Source: an uncultured Brachyspira sp.
Lineage (GTDB): Bacteria > Spirochaetota > Brachyspiria > Brachyspirales > Brachyspiraceae
Direction: 5' to 3'
Length of the DNA: 64,000 nucleotides
Assembly: GCF_944388875.1 (NCBI RefSeq)
Contig: NZ_CALXKQ010000006.1
Location: forward strand, 1-64,000
Shown piece after piece: positions 7,945 to 58,123 of the stretch; the stretch's first letter is position 1, and each line of letters starts with the position of its first letter. The position numbers and the translations under genes are program-made. Under the pieces are notes generated by a model that worked only from the letters and a program-made list of their open reading frames with translations, was not told where the DNA came from and did no database searches.

Positions 7945-8478
7945 ATGGAAATTAAAGATTCTACAAGAAGTGCATTGATTAGAAAAGGAAATGAGCTTTT
8001 TAATCAAAAGGATATAGATGGGGCTTACCGATGCTATTTAACAGCCTCATATTTTGGCGGTATAGAGAAAATTGCGGATTATTATAATTTTGAAAAGAAA
8101 AATATTATAAAAGCAATGCAGTTATATAAATTTATCTTAAAAGAAGACTCTAATCTAGGAGGTAATGTAAGAGCCAAGCAAAAATTGGATAAATTATCAG
8201 AATCTGTGGTTAAAGTTTTGAGAAAATGGCTTAAAGAAGATGAAACTTTTGATGCTGAAAATAAAAATACTAAACTTGAATTGGATAGTAAAAATGCTGT
8301 GCTTCCTTCTAATTATAAAAAAAATAGTTTGGAAGATATACTAAAAGAAAAAGAGAAATTGGATAAAAAAGCTGAAAAAGATTTAGAAAATAATAATAAT
8401 GATTTTTATTCCAAAGCATCAAATATAAAAAAGCCAGTTTTTGAAAAAATATATACAAATAAACAAAATAAAAAATAA
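7945..8478 (+). CDS. conserved hypothetical protein with TPR-like N terminus
   Basis: I do not recognise a named family. Residues about 8-75 are helical with a TPR-like look (ALIRKGNELFNQKDIDGAYRCYLTASYFGG, broken here only in description; then MQLYKFIL). The remainder (about 100-177) is highly charged, lysine-rich and probably disordered. There is no signal peptide, so it is probably cytoplasmic. It is the first gene of a rightward cluster leading into the GlmU-like gene after 34 bp. A consensus -10 box lies only 8 nt before the ATG, so it may be translated without a leader. AGAG is the only SD-like sequence. Confidence 0.6.
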   Translation: MEIKDSTRSALIRKGNELFNQKDIDGAYRCYLTASYFGGIEKIADYYNFEKKNIIKAMQLYKFILKEDSNLGGNVRAKQKLDKLSESVVKVLRKWLKEDETFDAENKNTKLELDSKNAVLPSNYKKNSLEDILKEKEKLDKKAEKDLENNNNDFYSKASNIKKPVFEKIYTNKQNKK

Positions 8479-54200: not shown

Positions 54201-54545
54201 ATGATAAAAAAATTATTAATACCATTAATTATAATATCATTAATATTAACGCCTTTAAATACTATATATGCCCTAACTCAGGATGAAGAAACTTTTTTGG
54301 ATGCTGCTGTATTCGGTGATGAAGATGTAATAAAAGATATACTTCAAAAAAATATTAATATCAATATTCAAGATGATGTAGGAAATACTGCATTAATATT
54401 AGCATGCATGGAAGGACATATTCAGGTTGTAAAACTCTTAGTAGAAGCTAATGCTGATAAATCTGTATTAAATAAACATGGAAATAATGCATTATTTTAT
54501 GCAAAGCAAAAAAATTACTCTGATATAATAAAACTTATTGAATAA
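54201..54545 (+). CDS. small exported ankyrin-repeat protein
   Basis: A 114-residue protein with a signal peptide (about 1-24, cleavage near IYA). Two complete ankyrin repeats (about 58-86, DVGNTALILACMEGHIQVVK then LLVEANADKSV; and about 90-114) follow a degenerate first one (DEETFLDAAVFGDEDVIKDI). AAAGGAG precedes the ATG by 8 nt. It is convergent with the channel fragment 6 bp away. It is a shorter relative of the 20504-21196 protein. Its partner is unknown. Confidence 0.8.
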   Translation: MIKKLLIPLIIISLILTPLNTIYALTQDEETFLDAAVFGDEDVIKDILQKNININIQDDVGNTALILACMEGHIQVVKLLVEANADKSVLNKHGNNALFYAKQKNYSDIIKLIE

Positions 54546-54550
54546 TAAAA

Positions 54551-55375
54551 TTATTTTTTTGTATTTTCATCTATTATAATTATTATTTCGGCTTCTTTAT
54601 TAACTTCATAATCATGTTCTGGATTTAAAACTATATTAGATTTATATTTAATTCCTATAGAAATAATATTTTTTTCAAGCAATAAAATATAAATATTTTC
54701 AAAATTCATAGATTCATTATCAGGAAAATATTTTTTATAAGGAACCATAATAATATCATTTCCATTTTTAGTAAGCAGATCATTAAATATATAAAGCAAA
54801 TCCGAATTATTAGAAGCTGTAGCCATAAGCATTCCTATTAATTTACCGCTTACTATAAAATCTCTTATATCATTAGAGTCTATTAGATTTCTATTTTCTA
54901 TAGAACTCATTAAAGAAAGAATAGGAATATCATAGTGGTCTTTAACTATTCTTCTTATTATTAAAAGAATATTGATTGCTTTTATATCTGTTTCTAATGT
55001 TTCTGATATTAATACTATTTTACTTATTTTATTTTCAGCTATCTTTGATGCAATAAAATCCTTTTTTATTTCTGCATTTTCTATATCTTCATAATAAAGT
55101 TTTACTATTTTTTCCTTTTCTGTATATTGTGATATTTCTTTGATAATTTCATTTTCTTTTTTGGTATCTAATATTAAAAGAACATTATGATCATACATTA
55201 TTTTATCTGTCATATGAATAGTTGTATCTATGTTTTTAATATTATCTTCTTTTTGATAAAGAATTACTAACTTTTCTTTTTCTTTTATTTTATCATAATA
55301 GTTTGGTATTAGAAGGCTCTTTTTTGGTTTTATTACTTTATTAATTTCTGCTATTTCTTCATGAACTAAACCCAT
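54551..55375 (-). CDS. C-terminal fragment of CASTOR/POLLUX-like channel, out of frame with its N-terminal half
   Basis: The 274 residues match the C-terminal half of the intact paralog at 56363-58123. Pairs such as SLLIPNYYDKIKEKEKLVIL versus PLLIPNYDNFIKKENRLVIL and DDIRDFIVSGKLIGMLMA-type blocks (here SNDIRDFIVSGKLIGMLMAT) align throughout. It would be the second cytoplasmic nucleotide-binding-type RCK/TrkA regulatory unit. Its ATG at 55375 has no SD. The 5' end overlaps the N-terminal fragment by 17 bp in another frame. Removing one A from the A9 tract at 55387-55395 joins both halves in frame, reading YLKKREILMGLVHEE. Confidence 0.85.
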   Translation of the reverse strand: MGLVHEEIAEINKVIKPKKSLLIPNYYDKIKEKEKLVILYQKEDNIKNIDTTIHMTDKIMYDHNVLLILDTKKENEIIKEISQYTEKEKIVKLYYEDIENAEIKKDFIASKIAENKISKIVLISETLETDIKAINILLIIRRIVKDHYDIPILSLMSSIENRNLIDSNDIRDFIVSGKLIGMLMATASNNSDLLYIFNDLLTKNGNDIIMVPYKKYFPDNESMNFENIYILLLEKNIISIGIKYKSNIVLNPEHDYEVNKEAEIIIIIDENTKK

Positions 55376-56333
55376 TAATATTTCTCTTTTTTTTTAAATA
55401 TATAGAGGATAGTTCTTCAAATGTTTTATTTTGATTATTGTATTCTATCCTTATATCTATTCCGCTAACATCAAATAATTCTTCATAAATACTGCTTAAT
55501 CCTGTATATGTTATACTTTGTCCTATTAATTTGTAAAGTATTTCATATTTATAAATTATATGTATATCAAATAGCTCGCTGTCATTTATAGATGATATAA
55601 TTTCTATACTTTCTTTTTTATTAACTAATATACATATATCTATTTTTTTTATATGAGATGCAGATTTTAATATTTTTTTTAATGATAGTAATATTTTTAA
55701 TGATTTAACATCATCATCATTAACTATTGTAACACTATGAGCTCTTTCTATATTAAGCATTTTTAAATTTTCAAATATGCTTGGATTTCCTTCTCTTATT
55801 ACTATATTTGTTTTTTTATAATTAGGAAAGAATGATATTCTTTTTTTTATTTCATCTGGATTTGCTTCAGATAATAATACTATTTTTTTTGCTCTTCCTG
55901 ATATAAACTCACTTATAATAGTTAAAGCTTCTTCTCCATATCCAAGTATGATAGAATGATTTCTCTCCATTATGAAAGCATTTCCATTACTAAGATTTTT
56001 TATTCTCTCTTGCAATGAATTATTAATCATAGCAATTAATAAACCCCATCCGCATACACCAAAAAATGTTACTCCTAAAAAAATAATAACAACTCCATTG
56101 AAGCCTCTGTCAGCTTCAGCGGCTGATATATTACCTGTATCTATAAACTGCATTAAACTATCCCAAAATGCTTCTAAAATTGGATAGTTAAAGAAGATTC
56201 TCATTAATACAGATATGATAAATAATGATATTACTATAATTAGTGTTAATATCATTAATTGGTATAATAATCCTTTATTAAATACTCTGTCTATTTTATA
56301 TTTTATATATTTTGATAATCTATCTATTAACAT
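55359..56333 (-). CDS. N-terminal fragment of CASTOR/POLLUX-like ion channel, frameshifted
   Basis: The 324 residues match the first half of the intact paralog downstream in coordinate order (56363-58123). The membrane part (about 20-115) has two helices around the pore block AFWDSLMQFIDTGNIS, as in bacterial relatives of the plant nuclear channels CASTOR and POLLUX; there is no TVGYG filter. The RCK-like domain starts with HSIILGYGEEALTII (about 124-138). The frame ends YLKKKRNINGFSS at the A9 tract, then stops. The rest is in the adjoining fragment. AGGA precedes the ATG. It may be a pseudogene, a phase-variable gene, or a sequencing error at a homopolymer. Confidence 0.85.
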   Translation of the reverse strand: MLIDRLSKYIKYKIDRVFNKGLLYQLMILTLIIVISLFIISVLMRIFFNYPILEAFWDSLMQFIDTGNISAAEADRGFNGVVIIFLGVTFFGVCGWGLLIAMINNSLQERIKNLSNGNAFIMERNHSIILGYGEEALTIISEFISGRAKKIVLLSEANPDEIKKRISFFPNYKKTNIVIREGNPSIFENLKMLNIERAHSVTIVNDDDVKSLKILLSLKKILKSASHIKKIDICILVNKKESIEIISSINDSELFDIHIIYKYEILYKLIGQSITYTGLSSIYEELFDVSGIDIRIEYNNQNKTFEELSSIYLKKKRNINGFSS

Positions 56334-56362
56334 AAAATCATTCCTATTGTAATTAATATAAA

Positions 56363-58123
56363 TTAAAAAATTAATTCTTCATTTTCTTCTTCTAAAATAT
56401 AATTGGTTATAATTATAATTTCATCCTTATTGTCTAATAAGCATTCATTATTAGGATTTAAAATAACATCATTATATCTTTTTACCCCTATTATTACTAT
56501 TTTTTTCTTTAATAAAGATAAATAAACATCCTGAAAAGTTTTAGATTCCTGAAAATAATCAGAATACGGAGACATTATTATATCTTTTCCATTTTTGCTT
56601 AAAAGACCGTAAAAAATATATAATATATTTGAACTCAATGAAGCCTGAGCCATAAGCATGCCTATAAGTTTTCCGCTTACTATAAAATCTCTTACATCAT
56701 CTGAATATATTAGATTTCTCTTTTGTATAGAATTAAGCAAAGATAATATTGCTATATTCAAATTTTCTTTCCTAATGATTTGCCTTATTATTAAAAGTAT
56801 ATTTATGCTTTTTACATCGGTAATATTATCCTCAGATATCAAAACTATTTTTGTTATTCCTTCTTTTTTCAATTTTTCAAGCATGAATTTATATTTGTTT
56901 TTTTGGGACTTTATTAAATCATAACTAATCATAGCTATATTATTATTTTCTATATATTCTGAAATTTCTTTGATTATTTCATCATATCTTTTATCTTCGC
57001 ATATTAGCAGAATATTATTTTTATATTTTATAATACTTGGTTTTATATCAGGGTATTCATTTATAGAATCATCATTATTATTTCTTGATAATATGACAAG
57101 TCTATTTTCTTTTTTTATAAAATTGTCATAATTTGGTATTAACAAAGGACTTCTATCTTCTTTAGTTATACCAAGAAGTATCATTCCCTTCTCAAGATAT
57201 TTTAAAGCAGCATCTTCAAATTTACAATTATCAAAATTATGATCCGTTTCTATATAAAATACATTTCCGTCATTAGAAAATAAATCCTCATATACATTGC
57301 TTAATCCTGTATAAATAATACTTTGTGCTATAAGTTTATAAAGAATTTCATATTTATAAATTATATGTATAACAAAGTTTTTTTCTTCAATAGATTTTAT
57401 TATTTCAATAGTATCTTCTTCATGAACTAATACGCATATATTTATTTTTTTATCAAGTTCTTCTTCTTCAATTATTTTTTTTAATGCGAGAAGTATATTT
57501 AATGATTCTGTATCATCATTATTTATTATTGATATGCTTGAAGATTTTGCTATATTAAGGAGTTTAATATTTTCTATCCTGCTGGTATTTCCCTCTCTTA
57601 TTATAACATTACTCTTTTTATAACCTTTTATGAAAGATACCCTCTTTCTTATAACATCAACATTATGATCAGAAAGTATTATAATAGTTTTTACCTTTGC
57701 CATAATAAACTGCTCTACTATAGTTAAAGCCTCTTCTCCATATCCCAATATAATAGCATGATTTTTTTCCATAATAAATGCATTGCCTTTGCTAAGATTA
57801 TTAATTCTATCCTGTAAAGCTTTATTTATCATGGCTATAAGAGAACCCCATCCGCATACACCGATAAAAGTAACCATTAAAAATGTTATCACTATACCAG
57901 TACTTCCTTCTACAGATGATATATTTCCAGTATCTATAAACTGCATTAAACTATCCCAAAATGCATCTTTAGGAGGGTATTGGAAAAAAACTATTATAAA
58001 TATTGAAACTATTAAAAGAAGTATTATTATAGCAAAAACTAAAAGCATTAATTGATATAATAAGCCTTTATTAAGCATTCTGTCAATTAGATATTTAATG
58101 TATTTTGGTATATCTTTAATCAT
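56363..58123 (-). CDS. CASTOR/POLLUX-like ion channel with RCK-type domains
   Basis: A 586-residue intact membrane protein. Two membrane helices (about 20-45 and 75-100) surround a pore loop region AFWDSLMQFIDTGNIS. Two tandem regulatory domains follow: HAIILGYGEEALTIVEQFIM (about 119-138, a Rossmann-type GxGxxA loop) and a second one after about 330 (PLLIPNYDNF, RLVILSRNN, SDDVRDFIVSGKLIGMLMAQ). Plant homologues conduct calcium or potassium across nuclear membranes; the bacterial ones are mostly uncharacterised. It lies 29 bp upstream of the frameshifted paralog in transcription order, an evident tandem duplication. Confidence 0.88.
   Translation of the reverse strand: MIKDIPKYIKYLIDRMLNKGLLYQLMLLVFAIIILLLIVSIFIIVFFQYPPKDAFWDSLMQFIDTGNISSVEGSTGIVITFLMVTFIGVCGWGSLIAMINKALQDRINNLSKGNAFIMEKNHAIILGYGEEALTIVEQFIMAKVKTIIILSDHNVDVIRKRVSFIKGYKKSNVIIREGNTSRIENIKLLNIAKSSSISIINNDDTESLNILLALKKIIEEEELDKKINICVLVHEEDTIEIIKSIEEKNFVIHIIYKYEILYKLIAQSIIYTGLSNVYEDLFSNDGNVFYIETDHNFDNCKFEDAALKYLEKGMILLGITKEDRSPLLIPNYDNFIKKENRLVILSRNNNDDSINEYPDIKPSIIKYKNNILLICEDKRYDEIIKEISEYIENNNIAMISYDLIKSQKNKYKFMLEKLKKEGITKIVLISEDNITDVKSINILLIIRQIIRKENLNIAILSLLNSIQKRNLIYSDDVRDFIVSGKLIGMLMAQASLSSNILYIFYGLLSKNGKDIIMSPYSDYFQESKTFQDVYLSLLKKKIVIIGVKRYNDVILNPNNECLLDNKDEIIIITNYILEEENEELIF

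Follow-up and report, generated by a model that had tools for sequence, protein, structure and literature searches.

Two neighbouring channel genes of an uncultured Brachyspira sp., of which one is interrupted at a run of nine adenines, raise the question of whether such a break is an evolved switch, a lost gene or an error in the assembly. The genes lie in a 64,000-nucleotide stretch of DNA, the whole of which is called the window here. A first-pass annotation had proposed that the interrupted channel could be phase-variable, or that its transcripts could be restored by RNA polymerase slippage, and had named a miscounted homopolymer as the main alternative. From the comparisons described below, the break most likely looks like ordinary gene loss and not like an evolved on/off switch.

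Layout and protein family of the tandem genes

The interrupted gene, copy B, occupies positions 54551-56333 of the window on the minus strand, behind its intact paralogue copy A (Table 1). Its two open reading frames, both on the minus strand, overlap by 17 nt. They align with copy A across both pieces, the 5' piece with 59% identity over 312 aa and the 3' piece with 47% over about 250 aa, and in this alignment the frame switches exactly at the A9 run. The coordinates, the two overlapping frames and the tract were all found in the sequence as first annotated, and the description of tandem CASTOR/POLLUX-like channels, one of them out of frame at A9, is borne out by Pfam, alignment and fold matches. 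Since four further A8 runs are present in copy B besides the A9, the gene is simply A-rich. The short spacer, the common direction and the AGGA-like site suggest that the two copies may form one operon. In the large-genome Brachyspira species examined, the array ends on its 3' side at the ankyrin-repeat gene, a conserved border.

Table 1. Features of the channel locus (positions in the window)
Feature	Positions	Strand	Basis or remark
Copy A, intact 2-TM channel gene, 586 aa	56363..58123	-	ORF list, Pfam, fold matches
Spacer between copy A and copy B, 29 bp, with AGGA-like ribosome site	56334..56362	-	sequence
Copy B 5' piece, 324 aa: TM part, pore and most of RCK1	55359..56333	-	out-of-frame tail after the tract is short
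A9 run on the coding strand (T9 on the plus strand), point of the frame break	55387..55395	-	sequence
Copy B 3' piece, 274 aa, shifted frame: end of RCK1 and RCK2	54551..55375	-	Pfam, alignment
Small, secreted-looking ankyrin-repeat gene, convergent to the channel genes	54201..54545	+	ORF list

Copy A and the 3' piece of copy B both exceed the curated cut-off of 26.7 bits for the Pfam family Castor_Poll_mid (PF06241), with 64.9 and 34.6 bits respectively. By sequence, copy A matches DMI1 (7vm8, E 9e-19) and CASTOR (6o6j, E 3e-15), while MthK is a weak match (E 1e-4). An AlphaFold2 monomer model of copy A, built from an input of 13 Brachyspira sequences (pLDDT 76), has the CASTOR and DMI1 gating rings as its best PDB folds, with E about 1e-25 and TM 0.62-0.72; in this monomer model copy A has two tandem RCK domains that match the CASTOR-type gating ring. 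The pore motif FIDTGNIS, with an acidic D-x-G-N and without TVGYG, is found in copy A and in nearly all B copies. Taken together, sequence and model indicate that both copies are genuine relatives of the plant CASTOR/DMI1 channels. The break in copy B falls at about residue 312 of copy A, at a helix/strand junction inside the C-lobe of RCK1 and not at a domain border.

PF06241 matches were found in 94 of the 296 Spirochaetota genomes searched, and CASTOR-like domains occur there also in shorter ORFs of about 330-390 aa, which may hold one domain copy. A literature search on the Pfam name returned nothing about bacterial channels. CASTOR-like channels are widespread in spirochaetes, yet their bacterial members have been little studied.

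Copies A, B and C across the genus

The locus was compared with 25 other genomes of the genus, among them B. hampsonii 30446 (G006), B. alvinipulli ATCC 51933 (G002), B. innocens (G008) and Brachyspira sp. G79 (G016). An orthologue of copy A is present in most of the 25 and is frameshifted in one, G016, where it is broken at an A7/A6 run. In that genome copy A near its 3' end (L041:7361-7501) and a nearby AI-2E-type permease (8309-8410) both appear frame-broken, possibly because of assembly errors.

Copy B lies beside copy A in B. hampsonii, G021, G020, G004 and B. alvinipulli, and elsewhere in the genome of G017; a third paralogue, copy C, stands between A and B in G020, G004 and B. alvinipulli, and A, B and C each form a well supported clade in the tree. 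Copy B is intact in B. hampsonii, G021 and G020. In G004, whose genome is a single contig, and in B. alvinipulli a one-base change at a site without a long run breaks it; copy C is also broken in B. alvinipulli, at a T3/T4 run. Ten genomes have only 14-67 bp between copy A and the ankyrin-repeat gene, and no copy B remnant was found in these ten, where copy A stands directly against that gene. From such varied breaks and clean absences it follows that copies B and C have often been lost, by different routes. Of the six copy-B genes in the array, three are intact and evolve under purifying selection, and copy B is therefore useful in some lineages. Brachyspira thus offers natural sets of one, two and three tandem copies, together with natural knockouts, which are useful for studying the function of each copy. 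In three strains of B. pilosicoli 4, 223 and 50 genes with suspected frameshifts or deletions were reported (PMC3532143), indicating that pseudogenes formed by strain-specific frameshifts are frequent in the genus.

In paralogue C an alanine replaces the conserved filter aspartate (F[IV]ATGNIS vs FIDTGNIS; L035:6769-8505 and L036:4666-6411, both on the minus strand), at a position that is essential in plant CASTOR. Given this substitution in the pore motif, the tandem copies may not all have the same ion selectivity.

The 5' piece of copy B is orthologous to the copy B of B. hampsonii, with 93% identity, and the 3' piece is 85% identical to the same gene. This nearest orthologue is a single open frame through the site, where it reads YLNKREILIGLVYED. 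At nucleotide level the orthologous site is AAATAAAA (also given as TTAAATAAAAGAG) in B. hampsonii, ATAAATAAAAAAGA / AAATAAAAAA in G021 and TTAAAAAGAAAAGA / AAAAAGAAAA in G004, while in G020 and B. alvinipulli the run is at most 4. A long run at the site is absent from all other B copies examined: none exceeds A6, and there is either an interrupted A4-A6 or no run. Among the genomes examined, the A9 is therefore private to the source genome.

Age and cause of the frame break

How prone to slippage a run of nine may be in this genome was judged from genome-wide pattern counts and a 244 kb sample. In the 3.11 Mb there are 3972 A7, 1062 A8 and 122 exact A9 runs, and 13 of ten or more. Against a codon-randomised expectation in 206 kb of coding sequence, runs of at least nine are avoided about six-fold (6 observed, 35 expected), whereas A8 is at expectation (65 observed, 62 expected). 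Avoidance of long runs in coding sequence has been taken as a sign of slippage-prone runs (Baranov et al., PMC1088944), and by this criterion nine is the length at which slippage, of DNA or RNA, becomes costly here. It is plausible that some polymerase slippage occurs at the A9 of copy B. Among 18 sampled A9 runs flanked on each side by 60 or more open codons, a non-random sample in which G/C-flanked sites were favoured, 17 are read straight through; with 122 exact A9 runs in the genome, the tract itself is less remarkable than the gene break.

One other A9 frame break was seen among the sampled runs (L099; G000:C23:17911-17921, minus strand), where a frame of 116 codons runs into one of 86 codons; the site is flanked by a gene with Ig-like sequence and a phage tape measure-like gene. 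The position and order recall the programmed frameshift of tail chaperones; the gene pair had no PHROGs match. For copy B itself, programmed -1 ribosomal frameshifting on A AAA AAG was ruled out, the shift needed being +1 (or -2).

Concerning the age of the lesion, no extra stop was found in the 274 codons downstream of the break. Copy B of the window and that of B. hampsonii are separated by a dS of 0.35-0.46, and in neutral simulations the probability of finding no stop was 0.06 at 0.05 substitutions per site and 0.006 at 0.1. The 3' part has a dN/dS of 0.25 against B. hampsonii, and its dN to the outgroup G021 is 0.160, compared with 0.163 for the intact B. hampsonii gene, so there is no excess of amino-acid change in the broken copy. 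From the lack of stops and of excess change we conclude that the lesion arose long after the split from B. hampsonii, or leaves the gene partly or wholly functional, or is a miscount. Recent exchange with B. hampsonii was considered as a source of the undecayed 3' half and is not favoured, there being no near-identical block along copy B: identity to B. hampsonii is uneven, 79-97% per 100 bp, and the longest identical run is 44 bp.

The reading that we prefer, at a probability of roughly 0.6, is a recent knockout of copy B by replication slippage; a young knockout would explain the private tract, the single lesion, the lack of decay and the independent losses elsewhere. Copy B would be a non-essential tandem paralogue of a predicted CASTOR/DMI1-like cation channel. 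A T-to-A change, judging from the sister species (B. hampsonii, site as above), probably first made an uninterrupted A8, and replication slippage would then have added one A. The first frame ends soon after the tract and would yield a shortened subunit that lacks RCK2 as well as the end of RCK1 and should be unable to build a normal gating ring. This would have happened recently, and the isolate very probably depends on copy A; since A9 is slippage-prone in this genome, a minority of correct copy B transcripts may leak through. The simple pseudogene, which the first-pass annotation had listed as an outcome that would refute its proposal, is the best fit if it is taken as very young: the frame is lost in copy B while the orthologues in B. 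hampsonii, G021 and G020 are intact, and the downstream decay expected of an old pseudogene is absent, leaving at most a young one in a species represented by one genome.

The absence of decay beyond one indel would also be expected of a miscount, of functional leakage or of a reversible switch. A single homopolymer indel is a classic sequencing or assembly error. If the true run were A8, copy B would be intact, and both the draft state of the assembly (48 contigs, 3.11 Mb) and the evolution of the rest of copy B, which is that of an intact gene, would agree. On the other hand, an 80 kb stretch of B. alvinipulli that is syntenic with the window has 48 genes with a match there, and of these copy B alone is split in the window, so that the break is more than chance; the rest of the window is frame-clean despite more than 20 A8/T8 runs, sampled A9 runs inside genes are nearly always in frame, and B-type copies in unrelated assemblies are also broken, at sites outside long runs. 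As the sole split gene despite so many A8/T8 runs, copy B lowers the chance of a miscount without removing it, and this explanation, put forward at first as the main alternative, now appears unlikely while keeping some claim. Rescue by RNA polymerase slippage, through which some in-frame mRNA would give full-length copy B at a reduced level with the 3' part still under selection, is possible and agrees with the threshold of nine in coding sequence, with the low dN/dS and open frame of the 3' half, and with the rescue known in Blochmannia and Buchnera (PMC3017870). However, neither the run nor its frame relation is conserved between relatives, as a functional slippage gene would have them; the tract is common to no relative, giving no sign that the arrangement is kept, the low dN/dS is mostly inherited from the time before the frameshift, and nothing shows that slippage is used. 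We consider this rescue unlikely.

Phase variation by reversible A8/A9 slippage of the DNA, as a selected switch, might be thought of from a tract that is long for this genome, whose length changes should be frequent, and from the variable state of copy B, on in certain species but off elsewhere. A repeat tract conserved in orthologues, as at contingency loci, was however found in none of those examined; the switched-off copies of other species have their lesions away from long runs, where they should not flip readily, or are cleanly deleted, A runs of at least ten are nearly absent from the genome, and the nine papers returned by a literature search on Brachyspira and phase variation include no title or abstract reporting tract-based switching in the genus. 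The proposal of a phase-variable channel consequently lacks support and we regard it as improbable. It is scarcely credible that copy B is a split gene, with a pore and RCK1 part and a free RCK2 piece translationally coupled at the ATG at 55375 and assembling together as separately made RCK subunits do: this start codon precedes the end of the first frame by 17 nt and has a weak GAGA ahead of it, but the break is inside an RCK1 lobe and the orthologues are single frames. A broader conjecture, which we hold as doubtful, is that independent small indels repeatedly turn off the B and C array whereas copy A is retained, loss being advantageous in certain niches or in culture, and that in this isolate the off state is leaky or reversible through the A9. 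The frameshift is mainly a caution that a lone A9 break in an AT-rich genome supports no claim of a switch without a comparison of orthologues.

Comparison with known systems

A homopolymer indel that inactivates a gene, as proposed for copy B, is known from inlA of Listeria, where poly(A) insertion or deletion switches the gene off (PMC2831843); the tract of copy B is in the middle of the gene, whereas that of inlA is at the 5' end, and the A9 of copy B is known from one genome. In the AT-rich endosymbionts Blochmannia and Buchnera poly(A)-tract frameshifts are possibly corrected by transcriptional slippage (PMC3017870). These cases share with copy B a lone indel in a long stretch of A, the gene being otherwise free of decay, but the tract of copy B is not conserved between species, and the gene appears to be a dispensable tandem paralogue in a 3.1 Mb genome.

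As channels, the Brachyspira copies have the pore-plus-gating-ring architecture of the MthK/BK-type RCK-gated potassium channels, without their TVGYG potassium filter. With CASTOR, POLLUX and DMI1 (6o6j, 6o7a, 7vm8) they have in common two tandem RCK domains after the pore and the D-x-G-N of the pore motif, which is found in the plant filter AD-S/A-GNHA, whose aspartate is required for CASTOR activity (PMC6697748). They differ from the plant channels in being bacterial, in having 2 TM instead of 4 TM, and in an identity of only about 17% in the structural alignment.
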